A stretch of 64,000 nt of DNA from Phenylobacterium sp. (GTDB lineage: Bacteria; Pseudomonadota; Alphaproteobacteria; Caulobacterales; Caulobacteraceae), in the NCBI RefSeq assembly GCF_030698145.1, contig NZ_JAUYNW010000080.1, positions 85,554 to 149,553 of the forward strand, written 5' to 3'. Made by a program: the position numbers and the translations under genes. Shown in pieces: positions 550 to 17,510 of this stretch. The first letter of the stretch is position 1. Every line of letters begins with the position of its first letter. Under the pieces are notes generated by a model, which saw nothing but the letters and a program-made list of their open reading frames with translations, had not been told where the DNA came from and did no database searches.

Positions 550-584
550 GGCGCCCCCGACCAACGATTGAAGAGGAGATGTGG

Positions 585-1337
585 ATGGCCGACCCGGCGA
601 TGAGAGCCAAGGCGTGGCTTCGCAACCAGTGGAACGGGTTCGTGGCGGCTGACGCCGGCATGCGGCGGACGGAGCTGGCGGCCCAGGAGGAGATGCGCGC
701 GCAGATCGTCGCGAAGCTCGACATTCCGCGTCTGAGCCTGGACGAGCGGCGGGCGATGGTGGGCGCGCCGCGGAAGGATCGACCATCGGAGATCCCACTG
801 CGGGGGCCGGTGGACCCGCGCCCGAAGGCGACGCCCGATCCCTATTTCGGCGCCCGCGCGGAGGATTTCGCTGGCAACGAGACCTGGGCCTTTCCCGGCG
901 GGTCCTACTATGAGTGGAACCGGAAGGCGCCGGGGCAGGGCGATGGGCGTTTCGGGAAGGGGTTTCGCTTCAAGAATGGCATCCCGCGACGTCATGATGG
1001 GGTGGACATCACCATGCCTGAGGGGACGCCCGTCTACGCGGATCGGGATGGGCGGGTACTCTATTCTGGTGACGTAAAGGACTACGGCCTGATGATCGAC
1101 GCTGGCCCGGACTCCGCCGGGAAGAGTCGCTATGCCCACCTCTCGCAGTCGTTTGTGAAACCTGGTCAACAGGTGAAAAAGGGTGAGGTGATCGGCCGCA
1201 GCGGCCGATCGGGGAACCTTGACGCGGAAGCTGCGTCGCACCTCCACTATGAGCGGTTCATGGACGGGCGGCTCGTGGATCCGTACCGGTTGTTCCGCTA
1301 TGGCGAAGCCTCGCCAAACTATCGCTCCAAGCCTTGA
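585..1337 (+). CDS. M23-family (LytM) peptidoglycan peptidase of the prophage
   Basis: The ATG at 585 was chosen because AGAGGAG lies about six bases upstream; in-frame ATGs at 546 and 579 are alternatives. The product is about 250 aa. The N-terminal 100 residues are charged and unassigned. The C-terminal half is a LytM/M23 domain with zinc motifs HDGVDI and HLHYE and the lysostaphin-like stretch PEGTPVYADRDGRV. M23 enzymes cleave peptide cross-links in peptidoglycan. No signal peptide is seen. A structural-operon location between terminase and portal, with a separate M15 endolysin downstream, suggests a virion-associated lysin used during DNA entry, but that is inference. It could alternatively act in lysis. 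Confidence 0.85.
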   Translation: MADPAMRAKAWLRNQWNGFVAADAGMRRTELAAQEEMRAQIVAKLDIPRLSLDERRAMVGAPRKDRPSEIPLRGPVDPRPKATPDPYFGARAEDFAGNETWAFPGGSYYEWNRKAPGQGDGRFGKGFRFKNGIPRRHDGVDITMPEGTPVYADRDGRVLYSGDVKDYGLMIDAGPDSAGKSRYAHLSQSFVKPGQQVKKGEVIGRSGRSGNLDAEAASHLHYERFMDGRLVDPYRLFRYGEASPNYRSKP

Positions 1338-1389
1338 CGTTCGCTATTTGTTCGACCAACCATAGTTTGACCATCGAGCGGAGGCGAGC
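1334..1389 (+). promoter_or_regulatory. Candidate promoter for the exported small protein
   Basis: A TTGACG hexamer overlaps the stop codon of the M23 gene and is followed by a locally AT-rich stretch (TTCGCTATTTGTTC, CCATAGTTTG). TTGACG matches the -35 element of alphaproteobacterial housekeeping promoters. No -10 stands out at standard spacing, so this is weak. It would fit a cargo gene with its own promoter. Confidence 0.25.
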
Positions 1390-1908
1390 GTGCGGCGGCA
1401 TTTGATTCTAGCCTTGGCCATCAGCGCGATCGGAGCCTCGGCGTTAGCGGCGGAGACGCCCTACTTCTGTCCGCCGCCCTATTGGCCAGCAGGCCGGACG
1501 CCGGGCCTGGAGATCGGAGACCTACTCGGGACGATGACGGGCCGAGTGCCGAAATCGTCCGGGTGTTATGACCCTCGCCGCGTGGTGTGCGCGTTCCGAG
1601 ACAAGCATGGCTACACGAACCATTTCGGCTCCAACGACGCGGATGGCGTGGAGGAGCGCGTTCTGCTCAGCAAGGTCGCGCTGCGGGCGCAAGCCGCACA
1701 GCTTCCCTTCGGCGTGCTGTGGACAGACAGCCGGGCGACCGTGAAGCGGCGGCTGAAGGTTATTCAGCGGCCCGGCTGGTCGCACGAGGATAGCGACACA
1801 ATCTCCACCAGCACGTGCGGCAGCCCACAGAGCGATTCCATGTATACCACCTTCAAGTTCGACCGTGCGGGGCGGTTGATCTCGATGGAGCAGAGCATTC
1901 AAGTCTAG
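1390..1908 (+). CDS. Exported hypothetical protein (possible prophage cargo gene)
   Basis: A GTG start follows a purine-rich GAGCGGAGGCGAG. The 172-aa product begins with a Sec signal peptide, MRRHLILALAISAIGASALAA, with likely cleavage after ALAA. The mature part has several cysteines and is predicted periplasmic. I recognise no family. It sits between the M23 gene and the portal, where structural genes are expected, and its 5' flank is AT-rich. This fits a moron (an accessory gene expressed from the lysogen), possibly altering the envelope. That is inference from position and the signal peptide only. Confidence 0.6.
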   Translation: MRRHLILALAISAIGASALAAETPYFCPPPYWPAGRTPGLEIGDLLGTMTGRVPKSSGCYDPRRVVCAFRDKHGYTNHFGSNDADGVEERVLLSKVALRAQAAQLPFGVLWTDSRATVKRRLKVIQRPGWSHEDSDTISTSTCGSPQSDSMYTTFKFDRAGRLISMEQSIQV

Positions 1909-2048
1909 ACTGCCTGCCCGGGGGGGTTGCCTAAACCGTCGCCCATTCGATGTTTGCGGCGTCTCGTGAAGCTTGACCGCCGCGACTAGTGCGACCGAAC
2001 ATCCGTATAACCCGAAACCTCCGCGCCTGCCGCGGAGCCGGAGACCCC

Positions 2049-3950
2049 ATGTCCGAAGACATCCTGAAAGACGCCCGCGCGGCGTTCGATCTCGCGCGCG
2101 AGCACGAGGCGGAGAACCGGCGCGAGGCGCTGGACGATATCCGCTTCGCCCGGCTGGGCCAGCAGTGGCCCGACAAGGTGCGCCGCGACCGGGAGTTGGA
2201 CGGGCGGCCCTGCCTGACCATCAACCGGCTGCCGGCCTTCATCCGCCAGGTGGTCAACGACGCGCGGCAGAACAAGCCGTCCATCGTCTGCCATCCGGTG
2301 GACAGCGGCGCCGATCCGGAGACCGCCGAGATCTTCAACGGCCTGATCCGCAATATCGAGCAAAGCTCGGACGCCGAGGTGGCCTACGACACCGCCCTCG
2401 ACTTCGCGGTGACCGGCGGGTTCGGCTATTTCCGCATCAACACCCGCTACGCCCGGGACGACGCCTTCGACCAGGACCTGGTCATCGAGCGGGTGAGCAA
2501 CCCGTTCTCGATCTATGGCGACCCGGCCTCGAGCGCGGCGGACTCGGCCGACTGGAACACGGCCTTCGTGGTCGACACCCTTTCGAAGGCCGAGTTCGAG
2601 GCGCGGTGGAAGGGCGCCGATCCGATGGACTGGACCACCGACGCCTATGGCGGGCTGGGCGGGCCCTGGATCGAGGGCGACCGGGTGATGATCGCCGAAT
2701 ACTGGCGGCGCGAGGCGGTGACCCGCTCGATCGTGGCGCTGTCGGACGGACAGGTGATGGAGCTCAGCGCCTATGAGGCCCAGAAGGGCCTGTTCGACAC
2801 GCTTGGGGTGAAGGTGGTCGGGCGGCCGCGGTCGGTGGCCGGCCACAAGGTGATCCAGCGGATCATGACCGGCGGCGAGGTGCTGGAGACCGTCGACTGG
2901 GCGGGCAAGTACATCCCCATCGTGCCGGTCTATGGCGAGGAGCTGCACGTGGACGGGCGGCGCGTGCTGCGCAGCCTGGTGCGCGACGCCAAGGACCCGC
3001 AGCGGATGTTCAACTACTGGCGCACGACCTCGACCGAGCTGGTGGCTCTGGCGCCCAAGGCGCCGTTCATCGGGCGCAAGGGGGCGTTCGAGACCGACGC
3101 GGTGAAATGGGCCACGGCCAACGTCCAGACCCACGCCTATATCGAATATGACGGGCCCGAGCCGCCGATGCGCCAGCCGTTCTCCGGCGTGCCGGCTGGG
3201 GCGCTGCAGGAGGCGCTGAACGCCAGCGACGACATGAAGTCGATCATGGGGCTGCACGACGCCAGCCTGGGCGCGCGGAGCAACGAGACGTCCGGCCGCG
3301 CGATCATGGCGCGGCAAAGGGAAGGGGATGTCTCGACCTTCCACTATATCGACAATCTGAGCCGGGCGATCCGGCACGCGGGGCGGATCCTGATCGACCT
3401 GATCCCCAAGGTCTATTCGACGCCGCGGGTGCTGCGGGTGCTGGGCCCAGGCGGGGAGGCGAGGCTGGCGCCGGTGAACCAGCAGTTCTCGGCCGACGCC
3501 GCCGACGCGGCTGGCCAGGTGAAGAAGATCGAGAAGATCTACGACCTGGGGGCGGGCAAGTACGACCTGACCGTCCGCGCGGGGCCGAGCTTCACCAGCC
3601 GTCGGGAAGAGGCGGCGACCCAGATGATCGAGTTGATCCGCGCCTATCCGCCGGCGGCGCCGATGATCGGCGACCTGCTGGCGCGAAACCTCGACTGGCC
3701 CGGCGCCGATGAGATCGCCGAGCGGCTGGGCGCCATGCTGCCCGCGCAGATGAAGGGGAGCTCGCCCGAGGCCGAGGCCGCCAAGGGCCAGATCGCCAAG
3801 CTCGCCCAGGCCCTGCAGGCCGCCGGCGCCAAGATCGCGGCCCTGGAGCAGGATCGCGGCCACGAAGCCCGGAAGCTGGAGATCGAGGCCTTCGAGGCCG
3901 AGACCAACCGGATGCGCGCCTTGGGCCAGGCGGAGACACGGCGTGGCTGA
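2049..3950 (+). CDS. P22-like phage portal protein
   Basis: The ATG at 2049 (MSEDILKDARAAFDLA) is preferred over the upstream in-frame start at 1989 because GGAG lies just upstream and the extension looks non-native. The product is about 633 aa. DIRFARLGQQWP, RPCLTINRLPAFIRQVVND and ARQNKP in the N-terminal third are characteristic of the P22 portal family, whose members are generally 600-750 aa. The dodecameric portal forms the DNA channel at one capsid vertex, docks terminase during packaging and later carries the tail adaptor. The C-terminal 70 residues are predicted helical and charged. Confidence 0.88.
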   Translation: MSEDILKDARAAFDLAREHEAENRREALDDIRFARLGQQWPDKVRRDRELDGRPCLTINRLPAFIRQVVNDARQNKPSIVCHPVDSGADPETAEIFNGLIRNIEQSSDAEVAYDTALDFAVTGGFGYFRINTRYARDDAFDQDLVIERVSNPFSIYGDPASSAADSADWNTAFVVDTLSKAEFEARWKGADPMDWTTDAYGGLGGPWIEGDRVMIAEYWRREAVTRSIVALSDGQVMELSAYEAQKGLFDTLGVKVVGRPRSVAGHKVIQRIMTGGEVLETVDWAGKYIPIVPVYGEELHVDGRRVLRSLVRDAKDPQRMFNYWRTTSTELVALAPKAPFIGRKGAFETDAVKWATANVQTHAYIEYDGPEPPMRQPFSGVPAGALQEALNASDDMKSIMGLHDASLGARSNETSGRAIMARQREGDVSTFHYIDNLSRAIRHAGRILIDLIPKVYSTPRVLRVLGPGGEARLAPVNQQFSADAADAAGQVKKIEKIYDLGAGKYDLTVRAGPSFTSRREEAATQMIELIRAYPPAAPMIGDLLARNLDWPGADEIAERLGAMLPAQMKGSSPEAEAAKGQIAKLAQALQAAGAKIAALEQDRGHEARKLEIEAFEAETNRMRALGQAETRRG

Positions 3951-3968
3951 GGGCCAAATGTTCGTGGT

Positions 3969-4526
3969 TTGTTCTTGACTTTCGCACGGGATTTTGCGAG
4001 GATTGCGTCATTGGAGAGAAGTGCGGCCGCGCCGCCACACGGCGCGACGGTCGAGGTTCGAACCTACGACGCCTTCCTATCGAAGGACGGAAGGGGTCCC
4101 GACCACGCCTTCCTGGTCGTCACAGACCATCGCACCGGCGAGCAGAGGGTGCTTCGGGGCGGGCCGGAGTTCTCACGCGGCCTGCCTCGCGTCACCGCCG
4201 AGATGCGGCCTTGGTCGCAAAGCCGCGAACGGGCGGTGCTGGACCGCGGGAAGGCGGTGACCACCCTGGCCAAGACTTGGCTGCCGCAGGCCGACGGGCA
4301 AGACCTGTTCCGTCGCGGGGAGGCGCTCACCGACGCCTACGCCAAGGCCGCCCCCCGATACGGGCCGTTGTCGAACTCCAACAGCGTCGCTCAGGGCGGC
4401 TATCGGATGATGACGGGGCGCCGTTTCGCCGATTCCCAGCTCTGGGGAGCGGACACGGTCCTGCCGACGGAGCTTCGGCCCCGCCGGGATTCGAGAACGC
4501 CGCCGACGCTGAGCCGACGCCCTTGA
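3969..4526 (+). CDS. Phage protein of unknown function between portal and scaffold
   Basis: The 185-aa frame opens with a TTG; the exact start is uncertain. A region DHAFLVVTDHRTGEQRVLRGGPE is followed about 80 residues later by YGPLSNSNSVAQGG. A His-containing strand combined with an NSNSVA-type segment recalls a family of small domains I have seen in phage and polymorphic-toxin contexts, possibly with a papain-like fold. I see no catalytic cysteine in the expected place, so activity cannot be claimed. The position suggests a head or procapsid component, or an ejected protein. The C-terminus is Arg/Pro-rich. Confidence 0.6.
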   Translation: MFLTFARDFARIASLERSAAAPPHGATVEVRTYDAFLSKDGRGPDHAFLVVTDHRTGEQRVLRGGPEFSRGLPRVTAEMRPWSQSRERAVLDRGKAVTTLAKTWLPQADGQDLFRRGEALTDAYAKAAPRYGPLSNSNSVAQGGYRMMTGRRFADSQLWGADTVLPTELRPRRDSRTPPTLSRRP

Positions 4527-4573
4527 ACCGCCGCCGCACCGCCGTCGGGCGGCCGCCCAACCCTGAGGACAGC

Positions 4574-5377
4574 ATGCAAACGGAAGACGCGATCAACTCG
4601 ACGGCGGAGCTCGAGCTCGCCCCTGACCCTACCGCGGACCTTGAGGACGACGCCGAGGAGATCGAACACGAGGGCCAAGCCTACAGGATCCCGCGCGCGC
4701 TGAAGGGCGCGTTCCTGATGAACGCGGACTACACGCGCAAGACCCAGGAGCTGGCGGAGCATCGCCGGGCGCTGGAGCGCGACCGGCAGGGCCTGGCCCA
4801 GCGCCTGGAGACGGCCCACGCCACCGTGGAGGAACGCGCGCGGCTGACGGCCATCGAAGACCAGATGGCCGATTTCGCGGCCATCGACTGGGAGACGCTC
4901 GGCGAAGAGGATCCCCAGACCGCCCAGGCGCTGTGGTCGCGCTATGAGGACTTCGGCCACGCCCGTGACCGCTATGTCTGGTCGCTGTCGCAGCGCGAGC
5001 ACCACGGCCGCGCCCAGGCCGAACGGGAGGTGGCCGAGCAACTGGCCGAGACCGGCCGGGTGCTGTCCGCGGAAATCGAGGGCTGGTCTCCGGACGTGGC
5101 GTCCAAGCTGGTGGAATACGCCGGCGCGTTCGGCGTGACCCTGGACGAACTGCGCGAGGTGGCCGACCCGCGACTGTGGAAGATCCTGCATCGGGCCCAT
5201 GCGGGCGACGAACTGGCCAAGCAGCACCAGACCGCCAAGCAGGCCGAGCAGCTGCAATCGGTCCGTCCGGCGATCCAGGTGAGCGGCGGCGGCGCGGCCG
5301 CCGGCGGCGTTCGTGACGAGCTGGGCGCCGGGGAGTGGATGCGGCGCCGCAACGAGCATGTTCTGAAGGGGCGCTGA
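4574..5377 (+). CDS. Phage scaffolding protein
   Basis: The ATG at 4574 has GAGG five bases upstream; the much longer ORF in the track is an in-frame extension through the preceding gene. The 267-aa product has an acidic N-terminus (DLEDDAEEIEHEG), a long predicted helix/coiled coil rich in Glu, Arg and Ala (about residues 55-200), a Gly/Ala linker and a short basic end (WMRRRNEHVLKGR). That layout, and a position directly before the coat gene, is typical of P22-type scaffolds. These direct coat assembly into a procapsid, with the basic C-terminus binding coat, and then leave. Assignment rests on context and composition, not on a sequence signature. Confidence 0.75.
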   Translation: MQTEDAINSTAELELAPDPTADLEDDAEEIEHEGQAYRIPRALKGAFLMNADYTRKTQELAEHRRALERDRQGLAQRLETAHATVEERARLTAIEDQMADFAAIDWETLGEEDPQTAQALWSRYEDFGHARDRYVWSLSQREHHGRAQAEREVAEQLAETGRVLSAEIEGWSPDVASKLVEYAGAFGVTLDELREVADPRLWKILHRAHAGDELAKQHQTAKQAEQLQSVRPAIQVSGGGAAAGGVRDELGAGEWMRRRNEHVLKGR

Positions 5378-5584
5378 CCCCACGGCCGACAAGGCCCTCC
5401 CATCTCACGGCGCACGACCAACCCGCTTGGACGTCGACGCGCCTTCGCCCGCCCCGCGCGGGCAGCTCGTCGCTCTGGCCCAGCGCCAGGACGGCGCCGA
5501 GCCGGTCTCCCTCCCATTCCGCGCGGCTTTCCCGAGGCTCGAGCGAGCCCGGAAGCCCTCGCGCGGCCAATCTCGAAGGACCTC
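5378..5584. other. Intergenic region between scaffold and coat genes
   Basis: These 207 bases contain no credible gene. The frames crossing it are Arg/Pro-rich GC artefacts. It probably carries the 5' untranslated leader of the coat gene; AAGGACCTC just before the ATG at 5585 supplies the ribosome binding site. Confidence 0.5.
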
Positions 5585-6760
5585 ATGCCCAATACGCTTC
5601 TCTCCCCCACGTCGGTGACCCGCGAGGCGCTGCGCGTGCTGCATCAGAAACTGAACTTCGTGGGCTCCATCACCCGCGAATACGACGACAGCTTCGCCCG
5701 CCAGGGCGCCAAGGTCGGCGACACCCTGAAGGTGCGCCTGCCCAACCAGTACACGGTGCGCAGCGGCTCGACGCTGGCCGCGCAGGACACGACCGAGACC
5801 GCCGTGGACCTGAAGGTCCAGACCCAGAAGGGGGTGGACCTGAACTTCACCTCGGTGGACCTGACCCTGTCCCTGGACGACTTCTCCGAGCGCGTCCTGG
5901 AGCCGGCCATGTCGGTGCTGGCGGCCAATATCGAGGCCGACGCCATGGGCATGTACAAGGACGTCTGGAACCAGGCGAACAACCACGGGGCCCCGGCGAA
6001 CTTCAAGAAGATCCTCGATGGCCGCAAGATCCTGGTGGACAACCTGGCGCCGCTGGCCGGCCGGACCTGCAACCTGAACACCCAGGACAATGTCGACCTG
6101 GTCGATGCGCTGAAGGGCCTGTTCAACGACCGCGCGACGATCTCCAAGCAGCACCGCGAGGGCTTCATGGGCCGGACCGCCGGGTTCGACTTCATGGAGA
6201 ACACGCTGTGGCCGTCGCACACCCGCGGCGCCCAGGCGGGCTATCTGGTCAATGGCGCCGGCCAGAGCGGCGCGTCGCTGATCGTGGACACCGGGACGGG
6301 CGCGGGTGGGATCGGCGACGTCTTCACCATCAGCGGCGTCTTCCGCGTGCATCCCGAGACCAAGCTGTCGACGGGGGTGCTGCAGCAGTTCGTGCTGACC
6401 GGCGTGCACGGTTCGGGGGCGACCAGCCTGGCGATCAGCCCGGCCATCGTCACCACCGGAGCGGGCCAGAACGTGAGCGCCGCCCCGGCCGACAACGCGC
6501 CAATCGCCTTCGCCGGGACCGCCTCGGCGGCGACAGGCACGTCGCTCGCCTACCACAAGAGCGCCTTCGCCTTCGCCACCGCCGACATGGTGATGCCGCG
6601 CGGGGTCGACTTCGCTGCGCGTGAGGTCTTCGACGGCGTCTCGATGCGGATCGTGCGCCAGTACGACATCAACAGCGACAAGTTCCCGTGCCGGCTGGAT
6701 GTCCTCTACGGCTTCAAGACCCTGCGCCCGCAGCTCGCCTGCCGGCTGGCCAACAACTAG
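5585..6760 (+). CDS. Major capsid protein, P22 coat-protein-like
   Basis: The ATG at 5585 follows AAGGACCTC at good spacing. The 391-aa product has features of the P22 coat family: an N-terminal helix (VTREALRVLHQKLNFVGSITREYDD), KVGDTLKVRLPNQYTVRSG, LNFTSVDLTLSLDDFSERVLEPA, and an inserted Gly/Ser/Thr-rich beta domain (about residues 225-320) before a conserved end (RLDVLYGFKTLRPQLACRLAN). It forms the icosahedral shell. Location right after the scaffold supports the call. Confidence 0.88.
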   Translation: MPNTLLSPTSVTREALRVLHQKLNFVGSITREYDDSFARQGAKVGDTLKVRLPNQYTVRSGSTLAAQDTTETAVDLKVQTQKGVDLNFTSVDLTLSLDDFSERVLEPAMSVLAANIEADAMGMYKDVWNQANNHGAPANFKKILDGRKILVDNLAPLAGRTCNLNTQDNVDLVDALKGLFNDRATISKQHREGFMGRTAGFDFMENTLWPSHTRGAQAGYLVNGAGQSGASLIVDTGTGAGGIGDVFTISGVFRVHPETKLSTGVLQQFVLTGVHGSGATSLAISPAIVTTGAGQNVSAAPADNAPIAFAGTASAATGTSLAYHKSAFAFATADMVMPRGVDFAAREVFDGVSMRIVRQYDINSDKFPCRLDVLYGFKTLRPQLACRLANN

Positions 6761-6823
6761 GCCTCATCCCCCGGGAGCCGGTTCGCCGGCTCCCACCCAT
6801 CCCCGACAACTCAAGGAGGTCCA

Positions 6824-7054
6824 ATGGACGCCAGCCAGGTTTCCAGCGACATGGAGGTCGTCACCCCCAGCGACGCCGCCGCGTGCCACGCGGTGGGCTT
6901 CGTCTTCACCGGGGGCGACTGCGCGATCGAGACCGGGCGTGGCCGGACCGTGGTCATCCCCGCCGCCTTCGCCGGCGTGGTTTTCCCGCAGGCGATCAGC
7001 AAGGTGAAGCTCACCGGCACGACCGCCTCGTCCGTCATCGTCTTCCGGGGCTGA
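6824..7054 (+). CDS. Small phage head protein (decoration-like, unassigned)
   Basis: A near-perfect Shine-Dalgarno, AAGGAGGTCC, precedes the ATG, implying high expression. The 76-aa product is predicted almost all beta (HAVGFVFTGGDCAIETGRGRTVVIP). It lies directly after the coat gene, where decoration or head-stabilisation proteins are commonly encoded. I do not recognise the family; the role is inferred from size, position and ribosome binding site strength. Confidence 0.6.
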   Translation: MDASQVSSDMEVVTPSDAAACHAVGFVFTGGDCAIETGRGRTVVIPAAFAGVVFPQAISKVKLTGTTASSVIVFRG

Positions 7055-7103
7055 CCTCCAGCCACCCAGACAGCCAAGTCCATCTCTCCTGGAGGCGCCC
7101 ACG

Positions 7104-7724
7104 ATGGCCATCTCAACCTATTCGGAGCTGCGCGGCGCCATCGCCGACTGGCTCGAGCGATCGGATCTGCTCGAGCGGACCGCCGACTTCATCCGGCTGG
7201 CGGAGTCGCGCCTGGATCGCGTGCTGCGCCTGCGCCACATGGAGGCCGATCACGCGCTCGCCGTCCCAGGCGGCGCGCGAACCCTGGCCTTGCCGGAAGG
7301 CTTTCGCGAGCCGGTGGCGCTGTGGATCGATCGGCCAGGCGGGCGCGAACCGATGCGCTTTGTCGACGCGGCGGTGCTGGCCGTGACGCACGCATCCGGC
7401 GAGCCGCGGGCCTGGACCATCGACGGGGACCACCTGGCGTTCGATCGCCCGTGGGCCCAGGCGTGCGACCTCACGCTGAGGATGCTGGGGCGCCTGGCGC
7501 TCTCCGAGACGACACCCACCAACGCCGTGTTGCGCGACTATCCCGACCTCTATCTGTTCGGTTCGCTGATGGAGGCCGCGCCCTATCTGCGCGACGCCGA
7601 GCTGCTGTCGCTGTTCGCGGCGCGGTTCGAGGCGGCGCTGGTCGAGGTGCGGGCAAAGGAGTCGCGCCACCGTTCGCTCGCCCGGCTGTCGGTGGAGCCC
7701 GCGCTCGCCGCGATCGGCGCCTGA
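7104..7724 (+). CDS. Phage head-tail adaptor protein (gp4-like)
   Basis: ATG start behind CTGGAGGCG. The 206-aa product opens with MAISTYSELRGAIADWLERSDLLERTADFIRLAESRLDRVLRLRHME, a pattern I recognise from podoviral adaptor proteins, which bind under the portal after packaging and seat the tail. The remainder mixes helix and strand and ends in a helical segment (LFAARFEAALVEVRAKESRHRSLARLS). Gene order (coat, small head protein, adaptor) agrees. Confidence 0.75.
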   Translation: MAISTYSELRGAIADWLERSDLLERTADFIRLAESRLDRVLRLRHMEADHALAVPGGARTLALPEGFREPVALWIDRPGGREPMRFVDAAVLAVTHASGEPRAWTIDGDHLAFDRPWAQACDLTLRMLGRLALSETTPTNAVLRDYPDLYLFGSLMEAAPYLRDAELLSLFAARFEAALVEVRAKESRHRSLARLSVEPALAAIGA

Positions 7725-7727
7725 GCC

Positions 7728-7967
7728 ATGACCCCGATCAGTCCCGAGACGCCACCGGCGCTGCGCGCCCTGCTGGCGGAGCTGGCCGAGGTGGTGCGCG
7801 CCTGGCGCGCGCCCGGCGCCCCGAGCTCTCTCTACGCCTGCGACGCCGACCAACTGCCGGACGCGGGCGACTGGCCCAACGGCCTGGTGCTGGTCTCCGA
7901 CCTCAACATCCTCGCCCATTCGGACGGATCAAGCTGGATCCGCCAAGACACGGGAGCCGCGATCTAG
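7728..7967 (+). CDS. Small phage protein, unassigned
   Basis: Three bases after the adaptor stop, a 79-aa frame reads an amphipathic helix (PPALRALLAELAEVVRAWRA) followed by a short beta-rich segment (GLVLVSDLNILAHSDGSSWIRQDTGAAI). The C-terminal WIRQDTG pattern resembles trimeric fibre or tail-tip modules, suggesting a structural protein translated together with its neighbours. Function is not recognised. Its stop directly abuts the next ATG. Confidence 0.6.
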   Translation: MTPISPETPPALRALLAELAEVVRAWRAPGAPSSLYACDADQLPDAGDWPNGLVLVSDLNILAHSDGSSWIRQDTGAAI

Positions 7968-8651
7968 ATGCCATCGTCCTACACCCCGCGCCTTCGCCTG
8001 GAGATGCAGGCGGCCGGCGAGAACCTGAACACCTGGGGCGCGCCCAAGCTCAACACGGTGATCAACCGGATCGACTATTCGATCGCGGGCCTGGCGAGCA
8101 TCGCGCTCACCGGGGACCACGTCCTGACCAGCTCGAACACCGCCGATGACGAGGCGCGCTCCGCGATCCTGAAGTTCACCGGGACGGGCGGTTTCACGGT
8201 GACCATCCCCTCGGTGAGCAAGGTCTACCAGGTGTGGAACGCCTCCGCCGGGGCCCTGACCCTGACGACCGGGGCGGGCGCGACGGTGGAGGTGGCCAGC
8301 GGCGAAGCGGCGCTGGTGATCTGCGATGGGAGCAATGTGAAGGCGGTGAAGGCCACTGACTTCGGCGGCGCCAGGTTGATCAATCTGGGCGACCCCACCG
8401 ACGCGCAGGACGCGGCGACGAAGGCCTATGCGGATGCGCTGGCGTTCAACGATGTCGCCCTGCCGGGCCAGGGTCCGGGAACCGCCGGACACTACGTCAA
8501 GTCGGACGGAACGAACGCTGGTTGGGCCGCGCCCCTGATCTCCGACATCGACGGCTACGCCGCCGATCAAGCCGTTCGCCATGCGGCCACGCAGGCGGCG
8601 GCCGAAGCGTCCTCAAAGGCGCTCGCCATCGCTTTCGCAGCAGCTCTCTGA
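7968..8651 (+). CDS. Phage tail/fibre protein
   Basis: The 227-aa product starts immediately after the previous stop. The N-terminus, LRLEMQAAGENLNTWGAPKLNTVINRIDYSIAGLASIALTGDH, is a recurring opening of phage fibre/tail proteins. The middle is a beta-rich Ser/Thr/Gly domain. The segment ARLINLGDPTDAQDAATKAYAD is a classic fibre-repeat motif. The C-terminus is an Ala-rich helix. It is most likely a fibre shaft or virion-attachment protein, with the specificity domain in the next genes. Confidence 0.75.
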   Translation: MPSSYTPRLRLEMQAAGENLNTWGAPKLNTVINRIDYSIAGLASIALTGDHVLTSSNTADDEARSAILKFTGTGGFTVTIPSVSKVYQVWNASAGALTLTTGAGATVEVASGEAALVICDGSNVKAVKATDFGGARLINLGDPTDAQDAATKAYADALAFNDVALPGQGPGTAGHYVKSDGTNAGWAAPLISDIDGYAADQAVRHAATQAAAEASSKALAIAFAAAL

Positions 8652-8658
8652 GGATCTC

Positions 8659-9069
8659 ATGCCCACGACGCCGAACTCCATCATCACGCCCCAGGCCATC
8701 AAGAGCGCGACCGCCGCGTGCACCACTGCGAACACCACATACTCGTCTTCGCCGACCAACACCCAGGTGCTGATCACGGCCGGCGCCAATGGCGCCCGCG
8801 TGACGCGGATATCCGCCATTCCCCTGGAGAACGTCGGCGACACGCAGCTTCAGTTGTTTCGAGACGGCGACGGGACTGGAGCCGCCAAGCGGTTCTTCAA
8901 CAGCGCGAAGATGCTGGCCTACACGATGGCCCAGACCACCGCCGCGACGCCGACGGAGTTCGCCTATTCCGATCTCAGTCCGCTGTTCCTGGCGTCTGGG
9001 GAAAAGGTCTATGCAGCCATCGGCCAGACGAAGAACATCACCTTCAACGCCGAGTGGGCGGACTACTGA
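8659..9069 (+). CDS. Phage structural protein, probable fibre/tail accessory
   Basis: The ATG at 8659 has GAGGA just upstream; the ORF-track start at 8581 lies inside the preceding gene. The 136-aa product is Thr/Ala/Asn-rich and predicted beta (AGANGARVTRISAIPLENVGDTQLQLFRDGDGTG). It has no signal peptide or TM. Its ATG-TGA junction with the glycine-rich gene downstream (TGATG) suggests coupled translation. No specific family is recognised; the fibre cluster implies a virion component. Confidence 0.6.
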   Translation: MPTTPNSIITPQAIKSATAACTTANTTYSSSPTNTQVLITAGANGARVTRISAIPLENVGDTQLQLFRDGDGTGAAKRFFNSAKMLAYTMAQTTAATPTEFAYSDLSPLFLASGEKVYAAIGQTKNITFNAEWADY

Positions 9070-9827
9070 TGCGGGGGGTACGCGGGCTGGAGTCGCGCCC
9101 CGGTCTCAGCGGCCTCCATGCACACGCACTTGTCCGCCGCGGACAAGTCCTGAAGGGGGCCAAGCAGAGAAACGCGCACATTATCGCACTACCCGGCGAC
9201 GCCAATTTTGCGGCCCCAGCATCAGGTTGGTACGACGTACTTCTCTACGGTCCTGGCGGGATGGGCGGATCGTCGGCCGGCACGGCGGCATCTGGAGGCG
9301 GTGGCGGTGGCGCGGCTCTAAAGCGCATCTGGCTTAGGGCTGGCGAAGTCGTGACCTACACCGTCGCTGTCTCGGGCGCTTCAACCACCGCTGCCGTTGC
9401 GGGACGATTTGCGTTCTCAGCTACCAGTGGAGGGGCAGGCGCAACAGGATTTGTACTCGGTGGAGCGGGCGGTCTTGGACTCGGCGGCGACGTTAATCGC
9501 TCAGGAGGTGCTGGCGAGGGCACAATGAACCCCGACGGTGATCCCAGCACAGAGGATGGGATTGGTGTCCTGCCGACGGCGGGCGAATTGGGTGGCTCAG
9601 GCGGAGTCGGCCCCTCTGGCGCAGGTGTTGGCGCATATGCCGGCGGGGGCGGGGGGGGAGGCGCGGGCTTCCGGGACATGTTGCCAAGCCTAGTTGGCGA
9701 CGGCGGGTCTGGTTACGGCGACTATCCTATGTCTGCGCCCGGCGGAGGGGGATACGGAGTCGTGAGTGGTGGCGGTCCTGGGGCAACTGGCGCGAACGGT
9801 GCAATTGCAATCATCTACGCCAGATAG
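9069..9827 (+). CDS. Glycine-rich tail-fibre tip / adhesin candidate
   Basis: The start codon overlaps the previous stop (TGATG). The 252-aa product has an ordered N-terminal third (HIIALPGDANFAAPASGWYDVLLYGPGG) followed by many Gly runs (GGGGGGAA, GGGGGGGAG, GGGGYG). Sandwiched Gly-rich motifs of this sort form polyglycine-II helical bundles in T-even-like gp38 adhesins and related receptor-binding proteins. I infer a receptor-recognition tip. Base composition is lower in GC than in the head genes (63-65% in two lines counted), consistent with an exchangeable specificity cassette. Confidence 0.65.
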   Translation: MRGVRGLESRPGLSGLHAHALVRRGQVLKGAKQRNAHIIALPGDANFAAPASGWYDVLLYGPGGMGGSSAGTAASGGGGGGAALKRIWLRAGEVVTYTVAVSGASTTAAVAGRFAFSATSGGAGATGFVLGGAGGLGLGGDVNRSGGAGEGTMNPDGDPSTEDGIGVLPTAGELGGSGGVGPSGAGVGAYAGGGGGGGAGFRDMLPSLVGDGGSGYGDYPMSAPGGGGYGVVSGGGPGATGANGAIAIIYAR

Positions 9828-10512
9828 CCGCTGCCGAGGCTCTAATCGCGTCCGAGCACCCTTCGGGATTCTCAGCTATCAGGTGATGTCCGCCGCGTAC
9901 TACCGTCAAGCTTGCCCGATCAACAACCATCGGCCGATCCTCCTGCCGTAGAAGGCTTGGAAGGGACTTAGGCGCTCGGACGTCTAAGAGGCTGTCGCCA
10001 GCAACTATGTGAACCGGAACAAGCTGATCTTCGAGAAGATACTGGTACGAACCACGGAAGGTGGCGTTCACGGCCGCGGCGAGATTGTTGTCCACAATGT
10101 GCCGAAGCGGCCAGATGTCGCCCTCTAGAAAGGGGTCGAGAGCAACGACGCCAGCGAGGCATGTCGGCGGCTTGCGCCCCATGGCTAGTCCAACGACGCC
10201 CCCGAGCGACTCCCCCACGAAAAGCACTCTCCTTCCAACAAGCGTGGCCTGGAGCGCTTCGGAATACGCAGCCGCGAACACCTCCACTGACACCTCGGAT
10301 AGAGCCGGAGCATTGTTGTGCTTTGGGAGGCACGCCAAAATCACATCAAAGTCGGTCAGCAGCGCCGTAAGTGGTTGAAGTTGCGCCAGCGCACGTGTGG
10401 CGCCGTGAAGGATGACCACGAGTGGGCGATCGCCTCGCAGCTCCCCCGCATGGAAGTGAACCACACCGTTGCTGGTCGGCACGCGCACTAGCTGCATTCG
10501 CCCTATTTGCAT
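9811..10512 (-). CDS. Alpha/beta hydrolase encoded antisense within the tail-fibre locus
   Basis: The 233-aa product has an alpha/beta-hydrolase layout: oxyanion-region LVVILHGATRAL, nucleophile elbow VGESLGG (Ser nucleophile), an Asp-bearing VVALDPFLEGD / IVAGDSLLDVR region, and a final GGHHLIAE for the catalytic His. No signal peptide. It overlaps the end of the glycine-rich gene by 17 bases and is the only clear minus-strand gene inside the structural module. GC by count is 53-58% in two lines versus about 67% in head genes. It may be a lysogen-expressed esterase modifying a surface polymer, or a chance insertion. Substrate unknown. Confidence 0.8.
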   Translation of the reverse strand: MQIGRMQLVRVPTSNGVVHFHAGELRGDRPLVVILHGATRALAQLQPLTALLTDFDVILACLPKHNNAPALSEVSVEVFAAAYSEALQATLVGRRVLFVGESLGGVVGLAMGRKPPTCLAGVVALDPFLEGDIWPLRHIVDNNLAAAVNATFRGSYQYLLEDQLVPVHIVAGDSLLDVRAPKSLPSLLRQEDRPMVVDRASLTVVRGGHHLIAENPEGCSDAIRASAAAIWRR

Positions 10513-10541
10513 GGCCGATCGCCGGTCGCCAAGGAGGCATC

Positions 10542-12317
10542 TTGCGGATACCGATCGAATTTCCAGTCGGCCTCAACGGCGACGACACCACTTTCGCGGC
10601 AACCGGTCGGTGGGCCGACGCCTCGAATGTGCGCTTTCACCGAGGGAGGCCCCAGGTCATCGGTGGGTGGGAAAGTCTCGCCAGCGATCCGTTGACTGGC
10701 CTGTGCCGGGCGGCCCTGGCCTGGACGGATCGCACGTCCAGCCTGGATATCGCCTTTGGCACCCACTCGAACCTGCAGGTCTGGGTCGGCGGCGGGCTCC
10801 ATGACATCACGCCGGGCCTGGCCCGCGCCTCGGCGCGGCTGGGTGCAAATCCGCTGTCCGTGTCCAACGCATCGACGGTGATCACCGTCGCGCACGTCGC
10901 TCACGGTCTGGCCACGGGTGACAGCGTCATGATTTCGGGATCGTCCCTGGTCGGCGGGGTCACGCCCTCAGGGCTCTACTCTCTTACGGTGACCGGCCCC
11001 CACGCCTACGCCATCACCCATGGGTCCGCGGCGACCTCGACCGCCGTGGGCGGCGGATCCGCCGTCGTCAGCGCGCCGCAGAACACCTTCTCGATGGGGT
11101 CAGTCGATGGCGCCGGCGGCGCCGGCTATGGCACCGGGTCCTACTCCACCGGCGACTATTCCGAGCCCTCCACGGCCGACTACTTCCCCCGCACCTGGGC
11201 GCTGGCGGCCTGGGGGGAGAACCTGTTGGCCAATCCGCGCGGCGGGGCGATCCACGCCTGGACCAACGACACCATGGTCATGGCCGCGCCGCTGGCCAAT
11301 TCGCCGCGCCAGGTCACCCACATGCTGGTCGCGCCCCAGGACCAGGTGTTCGCCCTGGGGTGCAACGAAGAGGTCTCCGGCGCCTTCAACCCACTCTGCA
11401 TCCGTCATTCCTCCGTGCGGAACAGCACGGTCTGGAACACCGCGGCGAACACCACCGCCCGCGAGTACATCCTGCCTGGGGGCGGAAGGATCGTGGCCGG
11501 ACGGGTGGTCGGCCCGTACCTGCTGGTCTGGACGACCCACGCGCTGTTCCTGGGAACCTTCGTGGGCGCGTTGGGGCAGCCCTGGCGGTTCGATCGCGTG
11601 GGCGAGAAGTGCGGCTTGATCGGGCCGAACGGCGCAGTGGTCGTGGGGCAGGGGGCCTACTGGCTCGGTCCGGACCTACAATTCTATCGCTACCTCCTGG
11701 GGGGCGCCCCGGAACCGCTCGCCTGCCCAATCCACCAGGACTTCGCCGACAACCTGGCGCCATCGCAGGGCGACAAGGTCGTGGCGTCGTCCATCTCGGC
11801 GTTCAGCGAGATCCGGTTCGACTATCCCGACGCCCGAGACGGGTCTGAGAACAGCCGCTACCTGTCGCTGTCGCTGGCTGACGGCGCCTGGTCGAGGGGG
11901 GTCATGGCGCGAACGGCGATGGTCGACGCGGGCCCGGCGCAGCATCCCATCGGGGTGGATCCTGTGGGCCAGGTCTATTGGCACGAGCGCGGCGCCAGCG
12001 CCGACGGCGGTCCATTCTCCTGGTTCGTCGAGACGGCGGACCAGCACCTGGACGAGGACGTCACGGCCATGGTTCGCGGCCTGTGGCCCGACATCAAGGA
12101 CCAGCAGGGCCCGGTGGCCGTGACGGTCATCAGCCGCTTCCAGCCGCAGGGGGAGGAGCGCGTCTACGGTCCCTATCTGATGGCGCCCGGCGAAGACCGG
12201 ATCGATATCCGCGCAACCGGCAGGCTCTTCCGGATGCGGCTCTCGGGTGGGTCGTCGCCGACCGCCTGCCGGATCGGCAAGCCGGTGTTCGATATCGCCG
12301 TCGCCGGCCGGCGATAG
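10542..12317 (+). CDS. Large phage tail protein (nozzle / DNA-stabilisation-like)
   Basis: The TTG at 10542 was chosen because a perfect AAGGAGG lies four bases upstream and the frame upstream is antisense to the hydrolase. The 591-aa product begins LRIPIEFPVGLNGDDTTFAATGRWADASNVRFHRGRPQVIGGWESL, a signature I associate with podoviral tail proteins following the adaptor (P22 gp10- or nozzle-like). The body is beta-rich with repeated Trp/Tyr strands, compatible with a propeller or barrel. It probably forms the tail tube below the adaptor. The exact family is inferred. Confidence 0.7.
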   Translation: MRIPIEFPVGLNGDDTTFAATGRWADASNVRFHRGRPQVIGGWESLASDPLTGLCRAALAWTDRTSSLDIAFGTHSNLQVWVGGGLHDITPGLARASARLGANPLSVSNASTVITVAHVAHGLATGDSVMISGSSLVGGVTPSGLYSLTVTGPHAYAITHGSAATSTAVGGGSAVVSAPQNTFSMGSVDGAGGAGYGTGSYSTGDYSEPSTADYFPRTWALAAWGENLLANPRGGAIHAWTNDTMVMAAPLANSPRQVTHMLVAPQDQVFALGCNEEVSGAFNPLCIRHSSVRNSTVWNTAANTTAREYILPGGGRIVAGRVVGPYLLVWTTHALFLGTFVGALGQPWRFDRVGEKCGLIGPNGAVVVGQGAYWLGPDLQFYRYLLGGAPEPLACPIHQDFADNLAPSQGDKVVASSISAFSEIRFDYPDARDGSENSRYLSLSLADGAWSRGVMARTAMVDAGPAQHPIGVDPVGQVYWHERGASADGGPFSWFVETADQHLDEDVTAMVRGLWPDIKDQQGPVAVTVISRFQPQGEERVYGPYLMAPGEDRIDIRATGRLFRMRLSGGSSPTACRIGKPVFDIAVAGRR

Positions 12318-12339
12318 GGCGTCTTCGCGAGCTTTGATC

Positions 12340-12696
12340 ATGATCGACCTCTGGATGCTCTGCCGAGGATGGCTGCTGCCTGCATTGCTGCCGGAAGACG
12401 GAGGAGAGGCTGAGCTGGTCGCCGAGATCGCGGCCGGCCGGGTGCGGCTCTGGGTCGGAGAAGCCTGCGCCCTGGCCACCGAGCTGGCGTCGGAGGGCGA
12501 CGGGACCTGCCTGCACATCTGGCTCGGCGGCGGTGATCTACAGGGCATCCTGGCGCTGCGGCCCGGCTTGGAGGCCTACGCGCGGGGCCTGGGCTGCCGC
12601 AGCGTGACGATCGATGGACGACCGGGATGGAGCCGGGTGTTGCGTGGCCACGGCTACGTGCGCGCCGGCGGTGAACTGAGAAGGACGCTCCGATGA
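12340..12696 (+). CDS. Small phage protein, GNAT-like fragment or internal virion protein
   Basis: The ATG at 12340 was chosen over the upstream in-frame start, which lies inside the tail gene. The 118-aa product reads MIDLWMLCRGWLLPALLPEDGG, then strands (RVRLWVGEACALATEL, CLHIWLGGG) and a helix-strand end (LEAYARGLGCRSVTIDGRPGWSRVLRGHGYV). The last part resembles the C-terminal motif of GNAT acyltransferases. Comparable proteins occur in podoviral tail clusters, with unknown role. The stop overlaps the next start (ATGA). Confidence 0.55.
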   Translation: MIDLWMLCRGWLLPALLPEDGGEAELVAEIAAGRVRLWVGEACALATELASEGDGTCLHIWLGGGDLQGILALRPGLEAYARGLGCRSVTIDGRPGWSRVLRGHGYVRAGGELRRTLR

Positions 12697-13802
12697 GCAA
12701 GAGAAAGTCGACGACACAGTCGTCTCAATCCAACCTGTCTACCACGACGCCAATCAATCCAGACTGGGTCCAGCATACGGCTCAGAGCCTGAATCAGGGT
12801 GTGCAGCGCATCGGCGGCCTCGACCCCTATTCGCTGGTCGCCCCGGTGACGGGCCTCGAGACACAGGCCGCCCAGGGGGCGTCCAGTCTTGGCAGGGGCT
12901 TCGGCGGCGGTGGAACGGACGCCGTCGGCGGCGACGCCTGGTTCGCGAAGCTGCTGTCAGGGCCAACGCCCGCCGCCTCGTCCGCCAGCCTGCTGGACAA
13001 TCTTCGGGCCTACTACAACCCCTTCAAGGACCAGGTCACCGGCGCGGCCATGGCCGACTTTGACGCGGACGCCGGGCGGACCAGAGCGGCGCAGGACCTG
13101 GCGCTGGCCGGCGCCTCGGCGTTCGGCGGTTCGGGCGCGGCGTTGACGCAGTCGATGACCGAGGGCGAACTGGCGCGAGCGCGCAGCAGCCAGCTTTCCA
13201 GGCTGCTCTCGGAGATGTTCAGCACCAGCGCGGGCCTGGCTGGGCAGGACGCCCAACGCCGCCAGGACGCGTCGATCGCCAATGCGCAACTGGCGCAGGC
13301 CGACAATCAGTGGCGCAGCCAGACCGCCCTGGCGCGGGACGATGGCGCGCGCTCCAACGTCGCGGCCCAGGCGGCCCTGGGCGCCCAGCTGCGGGGCGTC
13401 GACCAGGCGACCCGCAACGCGCCGCTGTCGCTGCTGGGCTCACAGATCGACATGTTCTCGGGCCTGCCGCTGTCGCTGTTCCAGGGCCAGACCACGAGCT
13501 CGTCGGGGACCGGGAGCTCGAAGTCGACGCAGACCGGCAGCGTCTTGGACACCGTGGGTCAGCTCGCTCAGATCGCCCAAGCCGCCGCGGCTTTGAAGGC
13601 TTCGGATCGGCGGTTGAAGCGAGACATCCATCGTCTTGGCCACCGCGCCGACGGGCTGAGCGTCTATCTCTACCGCTATCTCTGGTCGCCGCTCTGGCAG
13701 ATCGGGGTGATGGCGCAAGAGGTGTTGAAGGTCACTCCGGCAGCCGTCGTGCGCCATCCGAGCGGATTCCTGATGGTCGATTACAGCAAGCTGGGAGCCT
13801 GA
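12693..13802 (+). CDS. Phage virion protein with C-terminal intramolecular chaperone (S74) domain
   Basis: ATGA overlap with the previous gene. The 369-aa product has a Ser/Thr-rich N-terminus, a long Ala/Gln-rich helical middle (about residues 80-240: AAQDLALAGASAFGGSGAALTQSM, SIANAQLAQADNQWRSQ), a Ser/Thr linker, and from about residue 305 the domain SDRRLKRDIHRLGHRADGLSVYLYRYLWSP...IGVMAQEV. That last domain is the endosialidase-type chaperone, which trimerises the protein and then releases itself by autocleavage just before the SDRRLK region. The helical middle resembles internal or ejection proteins more than a classic fibre. Confidence 0.8.
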   Translation: MSKRKSTTQSSQSNLSTTTPINPDWVQHTAQSLNQGVQRIGGLDPYSLVAPVTGLETQAAQGASSLGRGFGGGGTDAVGGDAWFAKLLSGPTPAASSASLLDNLRAYYNPFKDQVTGAAMADFDADAGRTRAAQDLALAGASAFGGSGAALTQSMTEGELARARSSQLSRLLSEMFSTSAGLAGQDAQRRQDASIANAQLAQADNQWRSQTALARDDGARSNVAAQAALGAQLRGVDQATRNAPLSLLGSQIDMFSGLPLSLFQGQTTSSSGTGSSKSTQTGSVLDTVGQLAQIAQAAAALKASDRRLKRDIHRLGHRADGLSVYLYRYLWSPLWQIGVMAQEVLKVTPAAVVRHPSGFLMVDYSKLGA

Positions 13803-13803
13803 C

Positions 13804-14190
13804 ATGACCTTTGGGTTCAAGGCGTTTCGCCAGAGCATGTTTCCGAACGCCGAGTTCGGCCAAAGAGTCGCCCAGGCGGCTCCTCTCAGCATCATGTCGG
13901 AGACGCCCGCCGCGTGGACGCCGGATCGGCCGGTGTTCAACCCGGGCCTCAGCTACAAGCCGCCCTCGAAGTTCGAAGCCTATTGGGGCACGCCGCTGGA
14001 GCGAACCGGTAAGACTCGGGCCGAGCACCTTGGCGAGATCGGATCGCTCCTGAGAGACCGAGACGAACACTACATTCCCGCCCCGTCGGTCGACCTCTCG
14101 CCGCCGGCCACGCCCACACTGACGGGACGGGGCGGAAGCTCAGGCGCTTCCGACGTTCTTGCGCGCGTTCGGGCGCGCTATGGCCTGTGA
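13804..14190 (+). CDS. Phage protein of unknown function
   Basis: The 128-aa product begins one base after the previous stop (MTFGFKAFRQSMFPNAEFGQRV). It is low in predicted structure and rich in Pro, Ser and Gly, with a terminal helix (ASDVLARVRARYGL). No signal peptide, TM or motif. Its place between the S74-domain protein and the lysis genes suggests a minor virion protein. A GTG start of the next gene overlaps its stop. Confidence 0.5.
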   Translation: MTFGFKAFRQSMFPNAEFGQRVAQAAPLSIMSETPAAWTPDRPVFNPGLSYKPPSKFEAYWGTPLERTGKTRAEHLGEIGSLLRDRDEHYIPAPSVDLSPPATPTLTGRGGSSGASDVLARVRARYGL

Positions 14191-14543
14191 CCGCGTCCAC
14201 ATCCCTGGACTCCCTGCATCAGGCCCAGATCCTGACCCTGCGCCAGATCGGCGACAACGTCGCGGCCCAGACCCAGCGGCTGGAGGGGTTGACCGCCAAG
14301 GTGGATGACGTGCGCGAGCGGCTGGTTCGCCTGGAAGCCCAGGAAGCCGGAAAGCTGGTTGAGGGCCTGCGCGGCGATCTCAAGGCGGCGCTGGCGCGGA
14401 TCGACACCCTGGAGTCTCAGCGGGACCGAGTGGTCGGGGTGGCCGCGTTCTGGGCGTGGCTTGTACGCAGCGGGCCGTGGCTAGCCGCGGGCGCCGCGGC
14501 TTTTCTCGCCGGCATGGGTTGGCGCGCTGGTGGTGGCCGGTGA
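14187..14543 (+). CDS. Coiled-coil protein with one C-terminal TM, holin candidate
   Basis: A GTG overlaps the preceding stop. The 118-aa product has a long heptad-like helix (about residues 10-80: LTLRQIGDNVAAQTQRLEGLTAKVDDVRERLVRLEAQ) followed by a hydrophobic segment (VVGVAAFWAWLVRSGPWLAAGAAAFLAGMGW) and a short basic tail. Single-TM proteins with a preceding coiled coil often sit directly before endolysins and are annotated as holins or holin-like. Topology and position support a lysis role, but no family signature is seen. The endolysin starts 44 bases downstream. Confidence 0.6.
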   Translation: MTASTSLDSLHQAQILTLRQIGDNVAAQTQRLEGLTAKVDDVRERLVRLEAQEAGKLVEGLRGDLKAALARIDTLESQRDRVVGVAAFWAWLVRSGPWLAAGAAAFLAGMGWRAGGGR

Positions 14544-14587
14544 CCGGCCAGAGATCCTGACAAGCGCAAGAAGCAAGGAGGTCAGAC

Positions 14588-15040
14588 ATGCCGACAAGGC
14601 TTTCGCCGCATTTCACGGTGGAGGAGCTCACCGCGACGCAACATCGCCGGTTGGACAATACGCCGTCGCCAGCGGTGCTTGAAAATCTGCGCCGTACGGC
14701 GGAGCGGATGGAACAGGTACGCAGCCTGCTGGGAGACCGGGTGATCACCGTGTCGAGCGGCTATCGTTCACCCGCGGTCAACCGTGCGGTCGGCGGCGCG
14801 AAAACTAGCGCGCATTTGTCGGGGCTGGCGGTCGACTTCAACTGCCACGCTTTTGGCTCGCCGGCCGAGGTCTGCGAGGCGATCGCACGATCCAGCATCA
14901 CCTTCGACCAGCTAATCGAGGAAGGTCGTTGGGTCCATTTGAGCGCTGATCCTCGAGGGCGACGCCAGGTGCTGACCAAGCGCAAAAACGGCGGCTATCG
15001 GGCAGGTTTGGGTCGTGATCCTCCGACGCCGGGCCTCTGA
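14588..15040 (+). CDS. Endolysin, M15-family peptidase (D-Ala carboxypeptidase-like)
   Basis: ATG preceded by AAGGAGGT. The 150-aa product has the M15_3 layout: LSPHFTVEEL near the N-terminus, VSSGYRSPAVNRAVGGAKTSAHLSGLAVDF (zinc ligands His and Asp in SAHLSGLAVDF), and WVHLS carrying the last His. These zinc peptidases cleave peptide stems of peptidoglycan, and phage versions act as endolysins. No signal peptide is present, so it would need the holin candidate upstream for export. It is the last clear gene of the prophage block. Confidence 0.85.
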   Translation: MPTRLSPHFTVEELTATQHRRLDNTPSPAVLENLRRTAERMEQVRSLLGDRVITVSSGYRSPAVNRAVGGAKTSAHLSGLAVDFNCHAFGSPAEVCEAIARSSITFDQLIEEGRWVHLSADPRGRRQVLTKRKNGGYRAGLGRDPPTPGL

Positions 15041-15069
15041 CGGACCACGCACGCTTGAGCGATCCTAGC

Positions 15070-15648
15070 TTATCGCTGGTCACCTGCAACGCCGACCCGA
15101 CGGACCAGGGTCCGTACGTAGTCGCCGACATCCTGGGGCCAGGACGCGGTCAGATCGTCGAAGCGCGCATAGTCCTTGGCGTAGAATGCGCGACTGGCTT
15201 CCTCGAAATCCGGCAAGTCGCCAGCCAGGGCAAACATCACGCGGTGAACCGCCTCCTGAGCCTGTCGGCTATCGGCGGGCGCCGCCCGCCGCGCGTCTTC
15301 GACGAGGCGCCGCAAGGCCGCCGAGGCGCCGCCTGGCTGCGCGGCCAGCCATTCCCAGTGCCGGGGGAGGAGGGTGACCTCGCGGGCGATGACGCCAAGC
15401 TTGGGACGTCCGCGGCTTGTCGGCTTGGCGGGTTCGGGCGCCTCCTGCGCCGCCAGCCGCGCCAGGACGTCGGCCAGCTCGCCGCGCAGGTCGAGTTCGG
15501 CCGTATGGCCCGTCGCATCCTCGAAGACCAGCAGGTGGGTGGCGTCAGCATCGAAGGCCGCCTTGACGGCAGGGGCGACGTCGGCGAGCGAACCCGACGC
15601 CACCCGCAGCTTCCCGACGAAGGCGGTAAAGGGTCCGAGACGGGCCAT
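15070..15648 (-). CDS. DUF2239 family protein
   Basis: The 192-aa product opens TAFVGKLRVASGSLADVAPAVKAAFDADATHLLVFEDATGHTAELDLRG, the recognisable start of DUF2239. A Lys/Arg-rich GRPKLGVIAREVTLLPRHWEWLAAQPGGASAALRRLVEDAR follows, resembling a compact DNA-binding-like helical unit. Function unknown. It lies convergent to the endolysin and next to tRNA-Thr. It may be host sequence at the prophage boundary, since the family is chromosomal in many proteobacteria, or a passenger. The ATG is well placed but no strong ribosome binding site is evident. Confidence 0.75.
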   Translation of the reverse strand: MARLGPFTAFVGKLRVASGSLADVAPAVKAAFDADATHLLVFEDATGHTAELDLRGELADVLARLAAQEAPEPAKPTSRGRPKLGVIAREVTLLPRHWEWLAAQPGGASAALRRLVEDARRAAPADSRQAQEAVHRVMFALAGDLPDFEEASRAFYAKDYARFDDLTASWPQDVGDYVRTLVRRVGVAGDQR

Positions 15649-15807
15649 GTGCGCTCCAGCCGAACGACGGCTACCCTGCCGTCATGTGGCCTTAAATAAT
15701 ACCCGGATATAATTTGATCAAGCACGCAAGACCCATCACGCCGAGAGGCGCATATCGACGGACGATGTCGAAGGATCTCGCGCTCTCTCCCTTTGGCGGG
15801 GAAAGAG

Positions 15808-15882
<75 letters not shown>

Positions 15883-16220: not shown

Positions 16221-17509
<1,289 letters not shown>

Positions 17510-17510
<1 letters not shown>

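Follow-up and report, generated by a model that had tools for sequence, protein, structure and literature searches.

The antisense hydrolase gene and its neighbours

The window, that is, the whole 64,000-nucleotide stretch of Phenylobacterium DNA that was analysed, carries a cluster of phage-type structural genes followed by murA (Table 1). Between the genes for a Gly-rich protein and a nozzle-like protein, an intact open reading frame with an ATG start runs on the opposite strand. Its stop lies within the 3′ end of the Gly-rich gene, giving a 17-bp overlap, and 29 bp separate its start from that of the nozzle-like gene, whose ribosome-binding site sits in this gap; this is the placement that the original prediction had described.

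Table 1. Positions of the hydrolase gene, the slot that holds it, and the surrounding features of the window.
Feature	Position	Strand	Remark
Portal protein (phrog_156)	2049..3950	+	
Head scaffolding protein	4574..5377	+	
Major head (coat) protein (phrog_283)	5585..6760	+	
Tail-fibre-like protein	7968..8651	+	
Conserved small protein	8659..9069	+	Usual left slot border; ATGA overlap with Gly-rich gene
Gly-rich putative receptor-binding/adhesin protein, 252 aa	9069..9827	+	Weak Gly_rich_2 match, below cut-off
Hypervariable slot: Gly-rich gene and antisense cargo	9070..10541		Slot survey, pairwise comparison
Alpha/beta-hydrolase (Abhydrolase_6), 233 aa	9811..10512	-	Nucleophile S102, H209; no evident signal peptide
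Nozzle-like/packaged-DNA stabilisation-type virion protein (phrog_3287)	10542..12317	+	Right slot border; TTG start, AAGGAGG upstream
Virion structural protein with C-terminal Peptidase_S74 chaperone	12693..13802	+	
Endolysin-like protein	14588..15040	+	
tRNA-Thr(ggt)	15808..15882	-	Right edge of element
murA	16221..17510	+	Conserved chromosomal neighbour of element in most congeners

Length alone is no proof of a gene in this GC-rich window, where antisense reading frames of up to 625 amino acids occur inside real genes. That the hydrolase frame is a real gene follows from its homology and from the third-position-dominated change in a homologous slot gene. The hydrolases of two related slots, L048 and L049, differed at 60, 24, and 137 sites of codon positions 1, 2, and 3, respectively (dN 0.21, dS saturated), and this purifying pattern is as expected of a maintained protein.

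The protein matched Pfam Abhydrolase_6 above the curated cut-off of 26.3 (30.8 bits, 6e-7), and both the serine of the predicted GESLGG elbow (S102) and the histidine H209 were invariant across eight aligned homologues, in agreement with the predicted alpha/beta-hydrolase. Candidates for the catalytic acid were D/E126 and the Asp of VAGD, neither strictly conserved in the eight-sequence alignment. An AF2 model of moderate confidence (mean pLDDT 72.5) adopted the canonical alpha/beta-hydrolase fold, and a Foldseek search with the model against PDB gave matches that were strong (top E 2.6e-11) but, as far as a predicted structure can tell, generic, among them a feruloyl esterase (7dq9), a thioesterase (3qit), and a lactonase. 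Such matches would suit an enzyme of general metabolism or detoxification, or of an intracellular anti-phage defence unrelated to the surface. We consider either role very unlikely, as PADLOC returned no defence-system match for the window hydrolase, by which a known defence system was rejected as its identity, and as the slot position and co-cargo described below point towards glycans.

The Pfam search detected neither a CE4 nor an SGNH domain in the window hydrolase, so that a polysaccharide deacetylase identity (CE4 or SGNH esterase) was rejected, and inspection of its hydropathy revealed no hydrophobic N-terminal signal. Deacylation of a surface polymer, the function first proposed for it, is therefore unlikely. 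The gene has a GC content of 60.1%, with 63% at codon position 3, compared with 68.6% for the whole window, and its base composition is thus foreign-looking; the 53-58% GC given earlier from sampled lines applies to most 60-base lines of the gene, the full range being 53-68%. Between positions 9000 and 11000, a sigma-70-type promoter scan, which alphaproteobacterial promoters may escape, found none, and a terminator scan gave nothing beyond chance level.

A hypervariable slot exchanged among related elements

Scans of viral contigs, genome contigs, and INPHARED phages with the single hydrolase sequence gave no matches, because slot hydrolases are only about 30% alike. Relatives were gathered by walking outward from the nozzle-like gene as a handle. 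This gene was found in 49 of 101 Phenylobacterium genomes and the coat gene in 44, which suggests that roughly half of the genomes searched carry a P22-like, probably resident element; further nozzle relatives came from other family members and from 28 viral contigs. The named genome contigs place the element lineage in Phenylobacterium/Caulobacteraceae.

The survey covered 66 slots, a sample that includes some near-duplicates and contig edges. The slot spans from the conserved small gene (or the fibre gene) to the nozzle gene, mostly over about 0.55-4 kb, the longest being one degraded case of 9.7 kb. Nearly always it is opened by a plus-strand Gly-rich gene, with the cargo after it. Among relatives the 5′ end of the Gly-rich gene is conserved and its body swapped, and its product is probably a receptor-binding protein. 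Cargo types recognised by Pfam were alpha/beta-hydrolases, GT4 glycosyltransferases, TPR proteins matching Glyco_transf_9, methyltransferases of the FkbM and other kinds, and a hexapeptide transferase. All recognised cargo, present in 43 of the 66 slots, consisted of glycan-type enzymes or hydrolases; the other 23 slots were without recognised cargo, and most of those kept the Gly-rich gene. When each family was counted once per slot, 54 cargo occurrences lay on the minus strand versus 8 on the plus strand; all 8 were methyltransferases, which counts against the cassette model proposed below.

The survey rejected the model of the hydrolase as a lone antisense insertion, which the original prediction had favoured: the gene is one of several alternatives in a hypervariable cassette, and it changes hands along with the adhesin body. 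The broader expectation that the antisense gene is accessory, foreign-looking, and associated with a gene of the receptor-binding type was borne out by the survey and by GC content. Adhesins linked to hydrolases were of more than one type, so there is no simple one-to-one adhesin/cargo code, and one adhesin type per cargo type is unsupported for hydrolases; the general adhesin-cargo association (p = 0.0005) was partly driven by related sets.

Exchange could be followed between close relatives. Slots L049 and L050 are 98.6% identical on either side; the match breaks off at about codon 20 of the Gly-rich gene and is taken up again two bases ahead of the nozzle start. In L049 the Gly-rich body differs and a hydrolase is present, whereas L050 has no hydrolase, and there the Gly-rich gene extends into the nozzle start. 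The pair thus displays what marks a moron, namely, an accessory late-cluster insertion missing in a close relative. Similar left breakpoints, about 120-260 bases past the left slot border, occurred in L056/L058, L086/L092, L174/L092, and L062/L057, and in L056/L058 the exchange was limited to the Gly-rich body and adjacent cargo, leaving the distal glycosyltransferases unchanged. These breakpoints indicated that the exchanged unit is the adhesin body with its neighbouring enzyme.

Hydrolases occurred in nine slots (that of the window and L048, L049, L055, L062, L075, L084, L162, and L163), and in all nine they were antisense; a conserved antisense position in relatives was the check that the original prediction had proposed. 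The hydrolase started 20-29 bp from the nozzle start in the window, L048, L049, L062, and L163; in L055 and L075 a glycosyltransferase stands between the two, and in L162 a truncated L163-type hydrolase adjoins an L048-type hydrolase, the latter interrupted too. In a maximum-likelihood tree of the slot members and 37 chromosomal relatives, slot hydrolases were polyphyletic, with 6 changes of slot label, at least five of them forced by well-supported branches. A single ancient acquisition was thereby rejected; the same enzyme type has been recruited repeatedly to the same place and orientation. The outcome that would have refuted the original prediction, homologues that are all plain chromosomal genes unconnected with phages, did not come about. 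At L107 (8228-9866) and L109 (9096-10247), hydrolases akin to the slot types form divergent pairs next to serine recombinases and helix-turn-helix genes, and L109 joins both hydrolase types that stand in tandem in slot L162.

Since the segment that is exchanged carries both adhesin and cargo, the hydrolase might be a neutral passenger that homologous recombination brings in with adhesin variants and that has no role in the element, and both its foreign base composition and the damaged pair of L162 would agree with this. However, at least five independent acquisitions, always antisense and mostly intact, together with the third-position-dominated divergence and a co-cargo confined to glycan-type functions, make a neutral passenger highly improbable.

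The element that carries the slot

The structural cluster is of the P22 type, comprising portal, scaffold, coat, and an Sf6-like small terminase. The element, about 22 kb in total, extends over window positions ~1-15800 and locus L198 (G000:C54, ~78.9k-101.3k) and is followed at its right end by tRNA-Thr and then murA. Its left end, in L198 just left of the window, has minus-strand genes including an S24-type repressor; the statement that every other prophage gene is on the plus strand thus holds inside the window but not beyond it. The left part also encodes a TacA-like antitoxin (PF08681) and a GNAT acetyltransferase (L198, 14514-15298), a probable toxin-antitoxin pair.

Where element and murA shared a contig, they lay less than 20 kb apart in most genomes, the exceptions being G098, G256, and G074; murA was located with a probe that derived from the window only in part (79% identity to the window murA), served no other purpose, and missed some genomes. 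Despite being an exception, G098 has the same left flanking genes as the window's genome. Within 30 kb of the element, no match to the tyrosine or serine recombinase families (PF00589, PF07508) was found in 14 of 15 genomes. The exception was G074, with a tyrosine integrase (G074:C1:2087580-2088068) about 7 kb beyond the nozzle gene towards murA; here, 74 kb separate the element from murA, and the integrase possibly marks a second island adjoining the element. Element distances correlated with those of an unlinked host gene, AlaRS (Mantel r of 0.46 for coat, n = 40; 0.66 for portal, n = 22; 0.74 for nozzle, n = 31; each p = 0.001), with clear exceptions in both directions and some clear exchanges. 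The dN/dS of the coat gene was 0.03-0.26.

The usual site beside murA, the absence of an integrase nearby, and the partial co-divergence with hosts fit, as far as sequence comparison goes, a long-resident and perhaps domesticated element with some exchange; a narrow-host-range phage with a fixed site could lie behind the same pattern. These features make the earlier label of prophage perhaps too simple, and we regard the phage-derived locus as a candidate resident or domesticated particle element of Phenylobacterium. In G148 the coat gene was not detected, and the hydrolase and GT4 reading frames are still open, which favours a benefit to the host. With G148 included, three elements, L075 (of G148), L102 (G136), and L103 (G184), come from genomes in which the coat gene was not detected; some of their nozzle genes are damaged, and the GT4 cargo is kept; L075 keeps its hydrolase besides GT4, and L103 is cut by a contig end. 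A bolder view, which we offer only tentatively, is that of a non-mobile, long-resident P22-like particle system, gene transfer agent-like or kin-directed, in which a swappable module of adhesin and surface-glycan enzyme would set specificity. Each lineage would then alter both the binding of its particles and its own surface, and the antisense hydrolase would be a self-masking variant.

Proposed glycan tailoring and comparison with known systems

Some hydrolase homologues outside the slot lie within surface-glycan loci. Hydrolase and GT4 occur together in slot L075 and also, with the same GT4, in the chromosomal loci L113, L187, L183, and L192; the GT4 of L113 and L187 is homologous to the slot GT4, and both loci have genes resembling, by sequence, glucose-1-phosphate cytidylyltransferase and CDP-glucose dehydratase, besides an RTX protein and type I secretion (T1SS) genes. 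At L111 a Bac_transf sugar transferase adjoins the hydrolase homologue, and at L112 methyltransferase, FkbH-like, ACP-like, and MaoC genes are near it. With the limited probe set used, many chromosomal homologues had no recognisable glycan neighbour.

Given that the slot exchanges a probable receptor-binding gene and changing sugar-modifying enzymes together, we propose, with a probability of roughly 0.6, that the hydrolase is an interchangeable item of a moron-like cassette that tailors host glycans and is linked to a Gly-rich receptor-binding protein in a P22-like element. The data suggest that the element modifies the surface sugars of the cell that carries it, probably to mask the receptor. 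The Gly-rich protein would be read with the late genes, and the mostly antisense cargo enzymes would have expression of their own, apart from the late operon, as long as the element is silent. As the hydrolase has no hydrophobic N-terminal signal, we infer that it may be a cytoplasmic esterase or thioesterase that takes an acyl donor or an acylated sugar precursor as its substrate. Through its activity, the surface glycan to which the linked adhesin binds (O-antigen or similar) would be decorated differently, and the changed glycan would mask the carrier, reducing adsorption of its own or related particles. The idea of lysogenic conversion in the original prediction is likewise plausible on sequence grounds, fitting the glycan-modifying nature of the other cargo in the same slot.

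The main rival holds that the cassette enzymes modify the particle itself, glycosylating, methylating, or deacylating the adjacent Gly-rich adhesin, and therefore travel with it. The swapping of adhesin body and proximal cargo as a unit speaks for it, as do the TPR-glycosyltransferases, which look akin to enzymes that glycosylate proteins, among them FlmG of Caulobacter flagellin (PMC7591256), and the GT4 genes adjoining RTX and secretion genes in L113 and L187. Nevertheless, antisense orientation would decouple the enzymes from late virion synthesis, most slots without recognised cargo (23 of 66 in all) still have the Gly-rich gene, G148 has kept its cargo although its coat gene was not detected, and FkbM methyltransferases and a hexapeptide transferase would suit sugars better than proteins. 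We thus judge modification of the adhesin unlikely. If tailoring of host glycans holds true, a single locus couples the binding target of a particle with an enzyme that may alter this target on the producer, and co-evolution of receptor binding and receptor masking becomes testable in near-isogenic pairs of the L049/L050 type.

In P22-like phages a moron, with sieA in P22, adjoins the tailspike, and gtrABC conversion genes are carried as well (PMC2629481); gtrABC of P22 is expressed from the prophage in exclusion (PMC10883804). The Phenylobacterium cassette resembles the P22-like moron, which lies between the late operon and the tailspike, in being a variable late-cluster insert beside a receptor-binding gene, in company with P22-type portal, coat, and terminase genes. 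It differs in that its cargo consists of hydrolases, GT4, TPR-GT9, and FkbM enzymes, is mostly antisense, and is swapped with the adhesin body; independent expression, usual for P22-like morons, is only proposed here. Serotype conversion of O-antigen by temperate phages (for example SfIV, PMC3851460) likewise relies on phage-borne glycan-tailoring enzymes, but neither gtrABC nor an O-acetyltransferase was recognised in the Phenylobacterium element, and the predicted hydrolase could take off or divert acyl groups instead of attaching them. An esterase-type enzyme is also linked to receptor binding in temperate Klebsiella phages (PMC13123978), where the virion fibre itself contains an SGNH-type esterase domain, whereas the Phenylobacterium enzyme is a separate, cytoplasmic-looking, antisense alpha/beta-hydrolase. 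With alphaproteobacterial gene transfer agents (PMC10883770, PMC9632790) the element shares a resident structural cluster, integrase-free vicinity, and partial host co-divergence; unlike them, it has structural genes of the P22-like kind, along with an S24-type repressor and an Sf6-like small terminase. Thus, morons beside receptor-binding genes and prophage glycan conversion (PMC2629481), as well as esterases within receptor-binding proteins (PMC13123978), are already known, whereas an antisense glycan-enzyme cassette exchanged with the adhesin body, into which alpha/beta-hydrolases were recruited several times, and its location in a resident P22-like element of Phenylobacterium are new within the literature searched.
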